Below, piece by piece: positions 610-6,289 of a DNA stretch of 38,303 nt. The DNA lies in the IMG/VR virus record IMGVR_UViG_3300032523_000021, positions 1-38,303 of that record. The stretch is one strand, 5' to 3'. The notes under the pieces were generated by a model that saw nothing but the letters and a program-made list of their open reading frames with translations, ran no database searches and was not told the DNA's origin. The stretch is from a virus. The position numbers were made by a program, and so were the translations under genes. Every line of letters begins with the position of its first letter. Position 1 is the stretch's first letter.

Positions 610-1521
610 ATGGCTATTTCACGCGCACAACTACTTAAAGAACTGCTCCCCGGTCTAAACGCATTGTTTGGTTTAGAGTACGCACAGTACGGCGAAGAGC
701 ATAAAGAGATCTACGAAACAGAGACATCTGAGCGTAGCTTTGAAGAAGAGACGAAACTGTCAGGTTTCTCTGCTGCTCCTGTCAAAAACGAGGGTTCTGC
801 CATCGCTTATGACAATGCGCAGGAAGCGTTTACGGCTCGTTACAACCACGAAACCATTGCTTTGGGCTTTAGCTTGACTGAAGAAGCTATCGAAGATAAC
901 TTGTATGACTCACTGTCTGCTCGTTACACCAAAGGTCTGGCTCGTGCTATGGCTTACACCAAGCAAGTTAAAGCTGCTGCCATCTTAAACAACGGCTTCA
1001 CAGGCGGTGTTTATGCTGGTGGTGACGGTGTGGCTTTGTTCAGCACATCACACCCCCTGATCTCTGGTGGTGTAAACAGTAACACTCCAGCTACCGCCGC
1101 TGATTTGAATGAAACATCGTTGGAAAACGCTGTTATTCAAATCGCTGCTTGGACAGATGAGCGTGGTTTACTGATTGCTTCTAAACCTAGTAAGTTGGTG
1201 GTTCCACCTGCACTGCAGTTTACGGCAACTCGTTTGCTTGAGACTGAATTGCGTGTGTCTACTGCTGACAACGACATCAATGCGTTGAAGAACAATGGAT
1301 CAATCCCCGGTGGTTACACAATTAACCACTACCTGACTGATACCAATGCTTGGTTCCTATGCACCGACGTGCCTAACGGCATGAAGCACTTCATCCGTAC
1401 ACCGCTGTCTAACAGCATGGACGGTGACTTCGATACAGGTAACGTCCGTTACAAGTCTCGTGAGCGTTACAGCTTTGGCTTCTCAGACCCTCTGGGTATG
1501 TTTGGTTCACCTGGCGCTTAA
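610..1521 (+). CDS. Major capsid protein (putative)
   Basis: This 303-residue protein follows an AAGGAGCG ribosome-binding site. It has an acidic N-terminal part (GEEHKEIYETETSERSFEEE) followed by an alpha/beta body with a SLTEEAIEDNLYDSLSARYT segment and a long run about assigning residues and asparagine-rich loops. Length and pattern resemble the Mu gpT-like/HK97-fold major capsid proteins that I know from aquatic phages. No protease or scaffold gene is visible beside it, though either could lie upstream. A strong hairpin terminator directly follows the stop codon, as expected for a very highly expressed capsid gene. The family call is from recalled pattern plus position; a structure prediction showing the HK97 fold would settle it. 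Confidence 0.8.
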   Translation: MAISRAQLLKELLPGLNALFGLEYAQYGEEHKEIYETETSERSFEEETKLSGFSAAPVKNEGSAIAYDNAQEAFTARYNHETIALGFSLTEEAIEDNLYDSLSARYTKGLARAMAYTKQVKAAAILNNGFTGGVYAGGDGVALFSTSHPLISGGVNSNTPATAADLNETSLENAVIQIAAWTDERGLLIASKPSKLVVPPALQFTATRLLETELRVSTADNDINALKNNGSIPGGYTINHYLTDTNAWFLCTDVPNGMKHFIRTPLSNSMDGDFDTGNVRYKSRERYSFGFSDPLGMFGSPGA

Positions 1522-1669: not shown

Positions 1670-2098
1670 ATGGCACGTACTACGTTCTCCGGCCCAGTCG
1701 TATCTCAAAACGGCTTCATTACCGACCACACTCCCGGATCTGCAAACGCAGTAAACGCAACGGCTACAGCTACTGCGGCGCAAGTTGCAACGGGCTACAT
1801 CACTTCTACTTCAGCCGCCGCTACAGTCATCACTTTGCCAACTGGCACTCTGTTGGGAGCCGCTTTAGCCGCTACTCAAGGAACTGTGTTTGATTTGTTC
1901 ATTGACAACACCGCTGGTGCATCGACTGTGACTATTGCTGTAGCTACAAACGGTGTTTTGTCTACTGGCGCTGTTGATGCTGCTGCTGCCGCAGGTACTT
2001 TTGGTGACTTGACTGTTGCCTCTGGCGCAACAGGCTTAGCCCGTTTCACCATCATGTTCTCAAGTGCAACAGCATACGCGTTCACACGCACTGCTTAA
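1670..2098 (+). CDS. Virion decoration-like protein
   Basis: This 142-residue protein is rich in Ala, Thr, Val and Gly and has almost no charged residues after the first 15. It has a repeating pattern of beta-strands (VITLPTGTLLGA, VFDLFIDNTAG, VTIAVATNG, LARFTIMFSS) typical of small jelly-roll or beta-sandwich capsid decoration or tail proteins. It starts with a good AAGGAACC ribosome-binding site behind the structured leader. Composition and place right after the capsid gene suggest a decoration protein. I do not recognise a named family, and a tail-fibre-associated role is possible. Confidence 0.55.
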   Translation: MARTTFSGPVVSQNGFITDHTPGSANAVNATATATAAQVATGYITSTSAAATVITLPTGTLLGAALAATQGTVFDLFIDNTAGASTVTIAVATNGVLSTGAVDAAAAAGTFGDLTVASGATGLARFTIMFSSATAYAFTRTA

Positions 2099-2114: not shown

Positions 2115-2393
2115 ATGATGCAAACAGACGTAAAAAGTACAGCTGCAGCTGCTAACGCTACCACTACAATTTTTGGTGGCCCTGCCCGTATCAAAGGTTT
2201 GACTATCAGCTACCCATCAGGTGGAACAGTTATTCTCAATGATGGTACAGGCGGAACTGCTAGGTTTTCCTTTACTGCGCCAGCCGCAATTGGATCAATC
2301 TATGTTGCAATCCCTGGAGAAGGCATTAGGTGCGATATAAACATTTCAGCAGTTTGCGCCGCATCTACCACCGCAGTGGTGTTCTATGGCTAA
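2115..2393 (+). CDS. Small virion protein, unknown family
   Basis: This 92-residue protein begins at the ATG after TTAGGAGCATCAAATC; the next codon is also ATG (2118), so either could be used. The segments ARIKGLTISYPSGGTVILND and SIYVAIPGEGIRCDI suggest a small beta-barrel or sandwich. It is uncharged and Gly/Ala/Thr-rich like the preceding decoration-like protein. It overlaps the next gene by 8 bases, implying translational coupling. It probably belongs to the head decoration set. Function is inferred from position. Confidence 0.5.
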   Translation: MMQTDVKSTAAAANATTTIFGGPARIKGLTISYPSGGTVILNDGTGGTARFSFTAPAAIGSIYVAIPGEGIRCDINISAVCAASTTAVVFYG

Positions 2394-2631
2394 GTCCCCC
2401 GCATGGCAGAGGAAAGAAGGCAAGTCCGAGAAGGGCGGCTTGAACGCCAAAGGCCGAGCCTCCGCAAAAGCGCAAGGTATGAACTTGAAACGTCCCCAGC
2501 CGGAAGGCGGCTCTCGCAAAGACTCGTTCTGTGCGCGGATGGGCGGGATGAAAAAGAAGCTGACGAGCGCAAAGACAGCCAACGATCCAGATTCAAGGAT
2601 CAACAAAGCTCTTAGAGCTTGGAACTGCTAG
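2386..2631 (+). CDS. Small basic protein, DUF6321-like
   Basis: This 81-residue, strongly basic protein starts AKSPAWQRKEGK and continues with GGLNAKGRASAKAQG and a central SFCARMGGMKKK. The W-x-R-K-E-G-K plus GGLNxKGR pattern matches what I recall as the DUF6321 family, widespread in marine and freshwater phages and of unknown function. No membrane segment is present. Its start lies 8 bases inside the upstream gene. The composition suggests nucleic-acid contact or an internal capsid role, but nothing proves it. Confidence 0.65.
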   Translation: MAKSPAWQRKEGKSEKGGLNAKGRASAKAQGMNLKRPQPEGGSRKDSFCARMGGMKKKLTSAKTANDPDSRINKALRAWNC

Positions 2632-2640
2632 GAGTAAAGT

Positions 2641-3117
2641 ATGGCAGATGAAACTGATAAACCAGAACGCTATCTTATTCGGGATAGAAAAACTGGCACT
2701 TATAAAAATTATGAAGGGTATTCAACCGCTTCTAGAGCTAGAAATGCCGTAGATAAACTTGATAATGCTTATGGGGCATATAGGTACGAAGTAGTTCCGC
2801 ATAGTAAAGCTACAGAGGGATCATTTGAAAACCCTAAAAAAAATCTAGCAGGAAAATTAGGTGTTGCCGCAACCTTAACTGGAGCAGCAGCGGCAGCTAA
2901 AGCAGGGGAATACGGGGAAGCTGTAAACAAAGCAACAGATTTATTTGTTCCACCTTTTGCTGAATCTCGTGCAACTCAAGAAGGGCATGATGAAGAATTA
3001 GCTCAACGCAGAACTAAACCGCCCACAATTGACAAAGCTCGTGGTGGTAAAGTTTCAACTTCATCCCGTGGAGATGGGATTGCTCAGCGCGGTAAGACAA
3101 GAGGTCGGATGGTATGA
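2641..3117 (+). CDS. Hypothetical protein with RGKTRG-type C-terminal tail
   Basis: This 158-residue protein has three parts. The N-terminal 60 residues (RYLIRDRKTGTYKNYEGY and on) look like a small alpha/beta unit. The middle is an Ala-rich hydrophobic stretch near residues 70-90 (LGVAATLTGAAAAAKAG) that might be a weak membrane or coiled segment. The C-terminal tail reads GGKVSTSSRGDGIAQRGKTRG. A very similar tail ends the 3736 protein. The start follows AGGAGTAAAGT, a good ribosome-binding site. The stop overlaps the next start as ATGA. Function unknown. Confidence 0.6.
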   Translation: MADETDKPERYLIRDRKTGTYKNYEGYSTASRARNAVDKLDNAYGAYRYEVVPHSKATEGSFENPKKNLAGKLGVAATLTGAAAAAKAGEYGEAVNKATDLFVPPFAESRATQEGHDEELAQRRTKPPTIDKARGGKVSTSSRGDGIAQRGKTRGRMV

Positions 3118-3320
3118 ACCAAGAAAACGTTGAAACTTTAAAAAATGTAGCAGACGGTGTAGCCGCTGTTACGGCTATTGGTACGGTAATGCAAATGCTT
3201 CCTGCGTTTGCCGCACTATTTACAATTGTGTGGACAGGTATGCGTATCGCTGAGATGATTGCGGGTAAACCTTTTGCTAAAATAATTCGTCAAAAGAAAA
3301 ACAATGCCATCGACGAGTAA
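3114..3320 (+). CDS. Small membrane protein (holin-like?)
   Basis: This 68-residue protein has a hydrophobic segment at about residues 14-50 (VAAVTAIGTVMQMLPAFAAL then FTIVWTGMRIAEMI), enough for one long or two short membrane helices. A basic C-terminal tail follows (KIIRQKKN). The LPxxAALFTIVWTxxRI pattern is reminiscent of small phage holin-like proteins, but it sits among head genes, far from the endolysin at 13555, which has its own holin candidate. It could be a virion membrane-contact protein. It is coupled at both ends: ATGA with the upstream gene and a 17-base overlap with the next. Confidence 0.5.
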   Translation: MNQENVETLKNVADGVAAVTAIGTVMQMLPAFAALFTIVWTGMRIAEMIAGKPFAKIIRQKKNNAIDE

Positions 3321-3723
3321 AAAACAACACAATTTCATGGCAGCGGTGGCTAATAACCCATCTTTTGCTAAGAAAGCAGGCGTCCCACAGTCCGTGGGCA
3401 AAGAGTTCAACGATGCCGATAAAGGCAAAACTTTTAAAAGAGGTGGTGATATGGCTTCAAGTATGGGTAAACCTGTGATGAAAAAAGGTATGAGCATGGC
3501 TAAAGACGGCATGAAACGTCCTACGCCTATGGCTGATACATCTATGGGCGGTATGGGTGGTATGGGCATGAAAAAAGGCGGCATGCCTATGAAGATGAAA
3601 GACGGCAAAAAAGTGCCTATCTTTATGAATAAAGGTGGTGGCATGGCTAAAGGTGGCGGCATTGAGTCCAAGGGTAAAACCAAAGGCAAGATGATCACTA
3701 TGAAGCACGGCGGCAAAGCCTAA
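3304..3723 (+). CDS. Basic Met/Gly/Lys-rich small virion-cluster protein
   Basis: This 139-residue protein has a conserved-looking head: KKQHNFMAAVANNPSFAKK, then PQSVGKEFNDADKGK. A low-complexity region follows with many GGM, KKG and GMGG units (roughly residues 45-120) and about two dozen methionines. It ends KGGGIESKGKTKGK and then KHGGKA, related to the tails of neighbouring small proteins. The head motif is one I recall from many aquatic phages, always without known function. The charge suggests binding to nucleic acid or an acidic virion surface. The extreme Met content is odd. Confidence 0.6.
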   Translation: MPSTSKKQHNFMAAVANNPSFAKKAGVPQSVGKEFNDADKGKTFKRGGDMASSMGKPVMKKGMSMAKDGMKRPTPMADTSMGGMGGMGMKKGGMPMKMKDGKKVPIFMNKGGGMAKGGGIESKGKTKGKMITMKHGGKA

Positions 3724-3735
3724 TAAGGAGCTAAT

Positions 3736-3963
3736 ATGGCTGATTACAATGCTGGCGCAGGGCGAGGCAAGCAGGGCGGCCCTACAGCTAAAGAACTTGC
3801 TGATTACGAGCGTAAACAAGACGCTGGTATTTACACTGTTGAAAAAGGTAAGCCTCCACAGGATAAAGACGGCGCATCCGTCCCTATGAAGAAACTATCT
3901 AAAGGTGGTTCAGCTTCTAGTCGCGCTGATGGCTGCGCCGTTCGCGGAAAGACAAAGGCTTAA
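3736..3963 (+). CDS. Small hypothetical protein with RGKTK tail
   Basis: This 75-residue protein opens with a Gly-rich ADYNAGAGRGKQGG segment, continues through a charged helix-prone region (KELADYERKQDAG) and ends KGGSASSRADGCAVRGKTKA. That tail closely matches the tail of the 2641 protein (SSRxDGxAxRGKT), although the bodies differ. The start follows AAGGAGCTAAT. It is part of the small basic protein cluster between capsid and neck genes. Function unknown. Confidence 0.6.
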   Translation: MADYNAGAGRGKQGGPTAKELADYERKQDAGIYTVEKGKPPQDKDGASVPMKKLSKGGSASSRADGCAVRGKTKA

Positions 3964-3965
3964 TT

Positions 3966-4253
3966 ATGAGAGCAAGCCGTGGCATGGGTGACATTTCCCC
4001 TTCTAAAATGCCCAAAGGCGTTAAGAAAGCCCGGCGGGACGACACTGACTTTACCCAGTATAAAGAGGGTGGGAAAGTAAAATCTAAAGTAAACGAGGCG
4101 GGTAACTACACCAAGCCTAGTTTACGTAAACGGATTTTCAACAGCGTAAAAGCTGCGGCAATTGTTGGTACGGGCGCAGGTCAGTGGAGTGCAAGAAAAG
4201 CGCAGGTTATGGCTAAACGGTATAAAGCCGCAGGTGGTGGCTACCGTGATTAA
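3966..4253 (+). CDS. Small basic protein of the capsid-neck interval
   Basis: This 95-residue protein starts RASRGMGDISPSKMPKG. Its basic C-terminal half contains NEAGNYTKPSLRKRIFN and WSARKAQVMAKRYKAAGGGY. The RGMGDI...KMPK start and GQWSARKAQ...YKAAGGGY end form a recognisable pattern that I recall from freshwater and marine phage genomes, always annotated as hypothetical. There are no membrane segments. It lies 2 bases after the preceding stop and its end overlaps the next gene by 8 bases. A DNA-binding or internal head role is plausible from charge, but not shown. Confidence 0.6.
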   Translation: MRASRGMGDISPSKMPKGVKKARRDDTDFTQYKEGGKVKSKVNEAGNYTKPSLRKRIFNSVKAAAIVGTGAGQWSARKAQVMAKRYKAAGGGYRD

Positions 4254-4482
4254 AGCCCCACAGCAATCCCTGAAAAACTGGGGCAAACAAGATTGGACAA
4301 CCAAAAGTGGTAAAAAATCTTCTGACACTGGTGAACGATATCTTCCAAAAGCTGCGATCAAAAGTCTCAGCTCTAGTGAGTACGCTGCGACGACCAAAGC
4401 CAAGCGAGCCGGAAAAGCCGCCGGCAAACAATTCGTAGCTCAACCTAAAACAATTGCAAAGAAAACGGCAGGATTTAGATAA
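4246..4482 (+). CDS. Small basic protein, DUF5872-like
   Basis: The true start is most likely GTG at 4246, preceded by AGGTGGTGG, rather than an earlier in-frame ATG that would run deep inside the previous gene. The resulting 78-residue protein contains SLKNWGKQDWTTKSGK, TGERYLPKAAIKSLSSSEYA, and a basic tail GKQFVAQPKTIAKKTAGF. I recall this arrangement (LKxWxxQxWxTKSGK...GERYLP...ALSSSEYAATxRAKRxG) as DUF5872 or close to it, common in phages of aquatic bacteria and cyanobacteria and of unknown function. The stop overlaps the next start by one base. Confidence 0.65.
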   Translation: MIKAPQQSLKNWGKQDWTTKSGKKSSDTGERYLPKAAIKSLSSSEYAATTKAKRAGKAAGKQFVAQPKTIAKKTAGFR

Positions 4483-5420
4483 TGGCTAGCACTTCAGGAA
4501 CCTCCGCATTTAACCTAGACTTTAACGATATCGTTGAAGAAGCGTATGAGCGGGCGGGTATTGAGGTTCGTACTGGCTATGAGTTTCGTACCGCACGCCG
4601 GTCCTTCAATATGCTTACGATTGAATGGGCTAACCGTGGCATCAATTTATGGACTATTGAGCAAGGCCAATTCGTAATGAACACTGGGCAGGGCGTCTAT
4701 GCTTTGCCTAATACTACGATTGATCTGTTGGATCAAGTTATCCGTACACAGGCGACTACGATCAACCAGATCGATATCAACATTAGCCGCATCTCTGAAT
4801 CAACGTGGTCAACGCTGCCAAACAAGTTGGCCCAAGGCCGTCCTATTCAGATGTGGATTAACCGGCAATCCAACCAAAGCTATTTGTCTACGGCAACTGT
4901 AGCGGCAACGGTAGCGGCAACAGACACGACTATTACTCTTAGTTCTACTACAAACCTACCCGCAACAGGATTTATCACAATTGATTCAGAAACAATCTTC
5001 TACGCTAACGTCAGCGGTAATCAACTACTTAATTGTTATCGTGGTCAGTACAATGGCAGCACTAATACAACTGCCGCATCTCACGCAATTAGCGCTACCG
5101 TAACGGTTAATAACCTCACGTGTGTGAACGTGTGGCCTACGCCCAATGCCCCTGGGGATCAATATGTGTTTGTCTACTGGCGCATGCGCCGCATGCAAGA
5201 CGCTGGCAACGGCGTTAACGTGCAAGACATCCCATTCCGGCTAATTCCATGCGTAGTGGCTGGTCTAGCCTATTATGTTGGTTCTAAGCGCGCTGACGTG
5301 CCTATGGAGCGTATTATGATGCTTAAAGCGGCTTATGAAGAACAGTGGACGTTAGCGTCGCAGGAAGACCGCGAGAAGGCCCCTGCTCGTTATGTTCCAA
5401 GACAGTCGTTCTACAGGTGA
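4482..5420 (+). CDS. Head-tail connector protein, P22 gp4-like (putative), with inserted beta module
   Basis: This 312-residue protein has a conserved N-terminal block (DFNDIVEEAYERAGIEVRTG, RTARRSFNMLTIEWANRGINLW) and a conserved C-terminal block (FVYWRMRRMQDAG, IPFRLIPCVVAGLAYYV, EEQWTLASQEDREKAPARYV). That pattern resembles the tail accessory/head-completion factor of short-tailed phages (P22 gp4 type), which bridges portal and tail. Between them, about residues 138-210, lies a Thr/Ser-rich module with ITIDSETIFYANVSGN and a CYRGQYNGSTNTTAASH-type strand. This looks like a separate beta module inserted into the loop. Name from recalled pattern and gene order; moderately sure. Confidence 0.65.
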   Translation: MASTSGTSAFNLDFNDIVEEAYERAGIEVRTGYEFRTARRSFNMLTIEWANRGINLWTIEQGQFVMNTGQGVYALPNTTIDLLDQVIRTQATTINQIDINISRISESTWSTLPNKLAQGRPIQMWINRQSNQSYLSTATVAATVAATDTTITLSSTTNLPATGFITIDSETIFYANVSGNQLLNCYRGQYNGSTNTTAASHAISATVTVNNLTCVNVWPTPNAPGDQYVFVYWRMRRMQDAGNGVNVQDIPFRLIPCVVAGLAYYVGSKRADVPMERIMMLKAAYEEQWTLASQEDREKAPARYVPRQSFYR

Positions 5421-5423
5421 TGT

Positions 5424-5846
5424 ATGTCAAGTAGATACGCTTCAGGCAAAAATAGTATTGCAGAGTGCGATAGGTGTGGTCAGCGGTACATGCTTAAAAA
5501 CCTGAAGAAAGAAATTATTAAGACACGCTTGTTCAACATAAAAGTGTGTCCTGAGTGTTGGGACCCTGATCAACCTCAACTACAGTTGGGTATGTACCCC
5601 GTGGATGATCCACAAGCTGTACGAGAGCCGCGTCCTGATGTAAGCTATACACAGTCGGGAACTAGCGGATTGCAGATTATATTAACTAACAGTACAGCTC
5701 CTGATGGGTTTGGATATCCAGAGGGCGGTAGCAGGGTGTTTCAATGGGGCTGGTATCCGGTTGGCGGAGCTAGTAATTTTGATGTGGCATTGACTCCAAA
5801 CTACTTGGTGGCAACGACAAATGTTGGTACAGTAACAATATCTTAG
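5424..5846 (+). CDS. Zinc-ribbon virion-associated protein
   Basis: This 140-residue protein has an N-terminal treble-clef or ribbon motif: CDRCGQRY at residues 15-22 and CPECWDPDQPQLQLG at about 42-56, giving CxxC...CxxC for one zinc ion. The PQLQLG...DPQAVREPRPD segment after it is a pattern I recall in phage proteins placed between connector genes. The C-terminal 70 residues form a beta-rich module (TSGLQIILTN, RVFQWGWYPVGGA). The location between two neck proteins suggests a small structural or assembly role. Confidence 0.6.
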   Translation: MSSRYASGKNSIAECDRCGQRYMLKNLKKEIIKTRLFNIKVCPECWDPDQPQLQLGMYPVDDPQAVREPRPDVSYTQSGTSGLQIILTNSTAPDGFGYPEGGSRVFQWGWYPVGGASNFDVALTPNYLVATTNVGTVTIS

Positions 5847-5855
5847 GAGCTTAAA

Positions 5856-6029
5856 ATGAATGATATGAAACAGGATAAAAAAATGGTGGCTGGTGCTGTA
5901 CATAAGCACGAAAAAAAGCTGCATCCCGGCAAGCCTATGACTAAATTAGCCAAAGGTGGCAAGACCAACGCTAACATGAAGGCTATGGGTCGTGGTCTGG
6001 CTAAAGTTGCTAATCAAAAGCGAGGTTAA
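5856..6029 (+). CDS. 57-residue basic protein
   Basis: A short frame begins at the ATG after TTAGGAGCTTAAA and codes for 57 residues with about 17 Lys/Arg. It contains HKHEKKLHPGKPMTKLAKGG and MKAMGRGLAKVANQKRG. The KLAKGG and MGRxLAKxxNQ strings recall the small basic proteins repeatedly found in this part of related phages. The ribosome-binding site, tight spacing (10 bases after the previous stop, 2 bases before the next start) and composition shared with neighbours all support a real gene. Function unknown. Confidence 0.6.
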   Translation: MNDMKQDKKMVAGAVHKHEKKLHPGKPMTKLAKGGKTNANMKAMGRGLAKVANQKRG

Positions 6030-6031
6030 TT

Positions 6032-6289
6032 ATGGCCACGTTCAGCAAAAAAGTAATGGGCAAAGAAGTTGGTGATGCCAAGGTCTATGCGCCTCCACAC
6101 ACTATGACGGGCAAGCCTGTTAAAGCTGTTTCTAATTCTCGCCCTGACCGAAGCGATGCGTCTACAGTCAATATGTCTGTTGCTGGCATTAACCGCAGGT
6201 CAGCACCAGAAGCTAAAACAACTGGTATCGTTACCCGTGGTAACGGCGCGGCAACTAAAGGCACAATTGCTAGAGGCCCGATGGCATGA
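6032..6289 (+). CDS. Small hypothetical protein with RGNGAATKG tail
   Basis: This 85-residue basic protein starts ATFSKKVMGKEVGDAKVYAP and ends with TRGNGAATKGTIARGPMA. The tail RGxGAATKGxxxRGPM is one I recall from many small aquatic phage proteins. The body has TGKPVKAVSNSRPDRSDAST and no membrane segment. It starts 2 bases after the upstream stop and overlaps the next gene as ATGA. It belongs to the same cluster of small basic proteins between capsid and tail. Confidence 0.6.
   Translation: MATFSKKVMGKEVGDAKVYAPPHTMTGKPVKAVSNSRPDRSDASTVNMSVAGINRRSAPEAKTTGIVTRGNGAATKGTIARGPMA

Follow-up and report, generated by a model that had tools for sequence, protein, structure and literature searches.

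The window is the whole 38.3-kb linear virus record, and its genes follow a podovirus-like order: a capsid protein (610), small head proteins, neck/adaptor proteins (4482 and 6286), tail and lysis genes, and replication genes. The first-pass annotation had described a cluster of small, mostly basic proteins between capsid and neck. The open reading frames were found where it had placed them, and seven of the small proteins have a pI of 9.6-10.8, the exceptions being 2115 (7.8) and 3114 (8.1). The genes and C-terminal peptides of this region are listed in Table 1. The window capsid protein is 72% identical to the gpT-like protein of MinM2. The 4162 reading frame probably has its true start internally, near position 4246. 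By synteny, w3966 is the conserved right border of the tailed genes; its possible homology to the YPSAYA module of cyanophage GC119 and DSL-LC04 was discarded, as a shuffled control scored higher. Residues 8-51 of the 2641-3117 product (RDRKTGTYKNYEGYSTASRARNAVDKLDNAYGAYRY) gave a weak match to Pseudomonas phage Boevelstad (52% over 42 aa, E 0.01).

Table 1. Genes and C-terminal peptides mapped in the head region of the window.
Feature	Position	Strand	Evidence
Major capsid protein (303 aa), bounding the cluster upstream	610..1521	+	phrog_371 major head protein, E 1.8e-23
Likely cement/decoration protein	1670..2098	+	Position, and N-terminus TTFSGPV as in the annotated cement protein of DSL-LC04
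DUF6321 protein, no tail, ends RAWNC	2386..2631	+	PF19846, 63.3 bits (cutoff 28.5)
Basic protein with tail, 158 aa	2641..3117	+	Tail profile, E 6.9e-10
Tail ARGGKVSTSSRGDGIAQRGKTRGRMV of the 2641 protein, exact C-terminus	3037..3114	+	Tail profile
139-aa protein: gp165.1-like N-terminal three-helix module, disordered middle, tail variant	3304..3723	+	phrog_16759, E 1.6e-22
Tail variant AKGGGIESKGKTKGKMITMKHGGKA of the 3304 protein	3646..3720	+	Profile-profile comparison with the tail, E 2.5e-10
Basic protein with tail, 75 aa, truncated end GKTKA	3736..3963	+	Tail profile, E 2.3e-10
Tail of the 3736 protein, ends GGSASSRADGCAVRGKTKA	3889..3960	+	Tail profile
Basic untailed protein w3966, 95 aa	3966..4253	+	phrog_17747, E 1.1e-25; synteny
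Basic untailed protein	4162..4482	+	phrog_14910, residues 30-106 only
Neck/adaptor protein, downstream border	4482..5420	+	Place and N-terminus as in the DSL-LC04 adaptor; conserved synteny
57-aa protein with HKHE..KLAKGG module, end MGRGLAKVANQKRG	5856..6029	+	Separate shared module
Conserved basic protein, 85 aa, ends RGNGAATKGTIARGPMA	6032..6289	+	Different tail (profile-profile comparison)

Five C-termini in the region had been proposed to be alike. Three of them, those of the 2641, 3736 and 3304 proteins, belong to one motif, with the consensus KKGGxVSSASKRADG[I/C]AxRGKT[K/R]G[R/K][M/I][V/C/I]-COOH. The 2641 and 3736 tails match a single profile of 27 columns, which among the loci listed matched 320 ORFs and no reversed ORF, and the 3304 end (GGGIESKGKTKGKMI) is homologous to it by profile-profile comparison (probability 96.8%). 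The other two do not belong. RGNGAATKG at 6032 was rejected (probability 1.9% over 7 columns) and is the conserved C-terminus of a single orthologous family, and KLAKGG at 5856 is part of a different shared module, HKHExxxHxGxPMTKLAKGG, which in other genomes is followed either by the tail or by another end, MGRNLAKxANQKRG.

The tail is anchored at the C-terminus: among the matches listed, all 184 ORFs bearing its core stop within 17 residues past it, 156 of them exactly 3 residues after. In the w5856 slot of other genomes, a minority class of 17 small proteins has the motif at the N-terminus. Such genes, for example L168:5772-5960 and L240:11926-12114, start with SADGIAKKGKTxGK and carry a different C-terminal element, MGRNLAKIANQKRG. 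A cysteine occupies either the DG(C)A site or the last position of the tail, almost never both (65/26/2/60, Fisher 5.5e-6), and the tails of L002-L121 have one cysteine at most; DUF6321 and gp165.1-type proteins also tend toward a terminal cysteine. The fixed C-terminal position and the cysteine pattern, together with the terminal cysteines of those other proteins, speak for a processing or stability signal, whether for prohead protease cleavage, as a degron or anti-degron, or for cysteine-dependent attachment. We nevertheless regard such a signal as improbable, since 60 of the 153 distinct tails have neither cysteine site occupied, the consensus lacks an L/I-x-E prohead protease site and the motif is also N-terminal in some proteins.

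The tail is modular, one peptide being carried by many different bodies. After removal of the tail, single-linkage clustering of the matches listed gave 82 clusters with phmmer alone (268 bodies) and 100 when blastp was added (300 bodies), counts in which remote kinship may be missed because the bodies are short and of low complexity. An alignment of 95 tailed representatives had a mean column identity of 8%, with a sharp consensus only at the end. Similarly, the best 80 loci in a search with the 2641 protein included one whole-body relative, the others being chiefly tail-end matches.

DUF6321 gives a view of the junction: 69 relatives of the window protein end at RAWNC and 17 run straight into the tail, which is cleanly appended after an intact domain. 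Other phages have the domain as well, in 507 records. By parsimony, the DUF6321 tree requires 10 gains or losses of the tail, of which well-supported branches force only 1, so multiple origins of the tail on this domain are not proven. A tailed DUF6321 in S-CAM3, hinted at by a tblastn extension, was dropped, as the annotated protein ends WNC. The structure model of DUF6321 is weak (pLDDT 68, pTM 0.37). We also observed a natural fusion of a phiKZ gp165.1-like module to DUF6321 (L237:8421-8804), with DUF6321 in the tail's place.

It is the peptide that is selected. Among tails that share a locus, 66 pairs were compared: the codons of invariant residues are different in 36-74% of comparisons, where each phage's own codon usage predicts 47-78%, and none of the pairs is identical in DNA. 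With synonymous codons near saturation and no DNA-identical pair, the tail is neither a DNA element nor a recent copy, and the near-saturation of copies within a genome points to selection on the peptide. Between orthologous bodies, the tail is the better conserved part (median identity 75%, against 51% for the body), although some of the tail identity is imposed by the pattern with which the tails were selected. These data bear on the reading that the tailed genes arose by duplication and divergence, or by shuffling of modules at a recombination hot spot, with the tail mainly a relic or recombination target. Modules do move in this region, as seen from the HKHE-KLAKGG module preceding different ends and from the L237 fusion. 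Even so, we hold this reading to be unlikely: the peptide is conserved despite synonymous near-saturation, the bodies have no detectable similarity, and the tail is also found on DUF6321, a domain present in those 507 records of other phages. Shuffling may spread the tag, yet it leaves the conservation of the tail unexplained.

The check proposed in the first-pass annotation, whether the motif is restricted to one genome region and one phage group, came out in favour of its reading in a motif search, as far as sampled. The search used a DNA pattern for ADGxAxRGKT(K/R/Q)G that did not ask for its position in the protein. It found at least 120 loci in 2.9 million viral contigs, but only two contigs among bacterial and archaeal genomes totalling 257 Gb. 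One of these two, L125, bears other marker genes of the tail-bearing phage group; the other, L126, has a bare tail at the contig end adjoining a membrane-protein-like reading frame and is probably a chimera. No Pfam, PHROG or PDB profile covering the tail was found, nor was the tail found among PDB chains; it is nearly absent from cellular genomes and from these databases. A tblastn search of phage and plasmid collections with the tail as sole query gave no match, a result that low-complexity masking may affect. Our literature search found no paper on the tail, and neither an isolate carrying it nor virion proteomics was found. Individual tailed proteins are probably already in databases as hypothetical proteins.

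The conserved gene order is capsid, cement-like protein, DUF6321, variable tailed genes, w3966, neck, w5424, w5856, w6032 and second neck, and in each of 17 longer contigs all tails fall in a single cluster. To avoid selection bias, 80 phages were chosen by capsid protein alone, and the whole interval was available for 32 phages (31 fetched plus the window). In these, a profile match was found in 30/32 and a tail core at a C-terminus in 31/32. The core ends 70 of their 309 capsid-neck genes, none of the 233 genes up to and including the capsid, and 2 of the 269 from the neck onward. Based on these counts, and on the presence of marker genes of the tail-bearing group in 116 of 122 tail-bearing loci among the matches listed, the tail belongs, within the sampling, to a single head-gene slot of a single phage group.

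Relatives that share the capsid lie outside this group. The capsid protein is 56-72% identical in MinM2, DSL-LC04, 023Pt_psg01, HTVC023P-type pelagiphages and roseophage CRP-901, and no tail was seen in the capsid-neck proteins read from them, nor in a profile search of the 023Pt_psg01 and DSL-LC04 genomes. The DSL-LC04 slot holds small basic proteins, one of them a distant DUF6321. These capsid-sharing relatives, tail-free in the stretches read, indicate that the tail is an invention within a larger capsid-sharing group and is dispensable for this capsid type. The MinM2, Pag-Yong1 and Pra-JY27 records (OQ594354.1, OL906435.1 and PP438419.1) are all 65014 bp long with identical match scores and different hosts listed, and are probably the same phage.

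At a median length of 102 residues, the tailed bodies are hydrophilic, have a pI of 9.4, compared with 5.6 in genes without the tail, and show no TM-like segment. When 95 of the tailed proteins were scanned against Pfam, PHROG and PADLOC, only the gp165.1 module, DUF6496 and weak matches came up. At capsid-selected loci, a start resembling MKKxKRYxEGG was seen in 10/58 tailed and 3/1003 untailed proteins (e.g. L163:2865-3296 and L221:7535-7942).

One of the modules on tailed proteins is classed in PHROG as 'virion structural protein'. The N-terminus of the 3304 protein is 79% identical over 42 aa to PHIKZ165.1 (tblastn), and the same 40-residue helical module is found in phiKZ-like phage proteins and in 121Q gp51, annotated as structural (phrog_16759, phrog_22033). 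Unlike the 3304 protein, phiKZ gp165.1 has only 58 residues and no tail. The AlphaFold model of the 3304 protein has a pLDDT of 75-89 for residues 1-40 and mostly 41-57 beyond residue 40; the module is thus predicted with good confidence as three helices and the tail as disordered. The fold had no match in the PDB, and its BFVD matches had E values of 3e-4 to 4e-3. As for DUF6321 (PF19846), the domain stands alone in the window, with an extra tail in some relatives, whereas in T4-like cyanophages it ends the longer T4-GC119 protein. Some records annotate T4-GC119 as structural, while Sullivan et al. 2010 (PMC3037559) term it hypothetical, and we therefore did not count it as a proven virion protein. 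GC119 (L155-L160, cyanophages) resembles a chain of small basic segments with DUF6321 last, perhaps a polyprotein of head proteins.

The tail could simply bind nucleic acid, in which case the basic proteins would compact or shield packaged DNA, or work on DNA or RNA of the phage, with no sorting involved. The tail is Lys/Arg/Gly-rich and the bodies are basic, as such a role would have it. However, the fixed D, G, A and T positions and the I/C and M/V choices imply a specificity far beyond charge, a single copy sits at one terminus, and other basic proteins of the cluster have no tail. Conserved D, G and T, clean addition to a domain and the position bias argue against both plain DNA binding and mere paralogy, and we consider nucleic-acid binding as the sole role to be rather unlikely.

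We give about an even chance to the tail being a C-terminal docking tag, by which small basic proteins, for the most part disordered, are recruited to a partner in head assembly. The first-pass annotation had suggested an address signal. With two of its five tails set aside, that suggestion is a better fit than coincidence, paralogy or an element at the DNA level, as the motif is confined, as far as sampled, to one region and one phage group and is nearly absent from cellular genomes, Pfam, PHROGs and PDB. From the gene context and the anatomy of the tail we infer the partner, head packaging, ejection and cargo role as follows. A Gly-rich linker would join the tail to the variable, small, basic and mostly disordered bodies, and the conserved RADGxAxRGKTKG segment would bind one common partner during head assembly, with the scaffold or the inside of the capsid as the likeliest candidates. 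In this way a variety of cargo proteins would enter the prohead. They would be ejected along with the DNA and turn over fast in an arms race with the host.

The scaffold is a candidate partner. An acidic motif, [I/V]E[I/V]E[I/V]xDDTPxxDR, is present at its N-terminus in the tail-bearing phages, in strict form in 36/55 and in looser form in nearly all others (e.g. L139:4916-5893 and L145:14904-15848). The motif was absent from the six tail-free relatives aligned, a correlation of motif and tail that spans one clade boundary. A related acidic motif, IEIEIEDPExV, was observed at portal N-termini (L139:1831-4359).

If the tail is an address tag, a search with one motif would yield candidates for injected proteins across an abundant phage group, and some 80-100 hypothetical families would become candidate host-takeover or counter-defence proteins. 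It would also offer a short peptide with which foreign proteins could be loaded into phage heads, and the use of a sequence code for head filling by non-T4 phages would become testable. The fuller picture is of a phage-encoded C-terminal cargo-loading code: a single peptide that works on almost any small protein would direct a changing assortment of dozens of protein families to the heads of an abundant phage group, as yet uncultured, for injection into the host. This is possible, with a chance somewhat short of even. There is a fair chance that no C-terminal code of this sort has been known from a phage before.

The proposed docking of the tail on a single partner in head assembly draws on an anatomy that matches two known systems, encapsulins and T4. 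Encapsulin cargo-loading peptides are hydrophobic, and the tail has no resemblance to them. They are usually C-terminal and sometimes N-terminal, and direct unrelated cargo whose genes adjoin that of an HK97-type shell (PMC7355545). Like them, the tail is terminal and found on different proteins encoded beside the shell gene. The encapsulin peptide, however, has about 10 residues and fits a hydrophobic luminal pocket, whereas the tail is strongly basic and K/R/G-rich, belongs to a tailed phage and serves many putative cargo families.

In T4, a short terminal peptide is common to small basic proteins with unrelated, fast-changing bodies; this capsid targeting sequence (CTS) shows affinity for the core of the prohead and is sufficient for packaging, and the internal proteins, once ejected, can counter restriction (PMC9026906). 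The tail is likewise common to several small basic proteins with unrelated bodies, and the linker, fixed peptide, variable basic bodies and head-gene slot all have their likeness in T4. The CTS of IPI, IPII and IPIII is N-terminal, about 10 residues long and cleaved by gp21. In contrast, the tail has 16-27 residues, no sequence relation to the CTS and no protease site of the L/I-x-E type, and lies near the C-terminus in 184/184 pattern-selected ORFs, the N-terminal version being that of the 17 w5856-slot proteins. The two are analogous, not homologous, and by this analogy the tail may work like the T4 CTS without being one.
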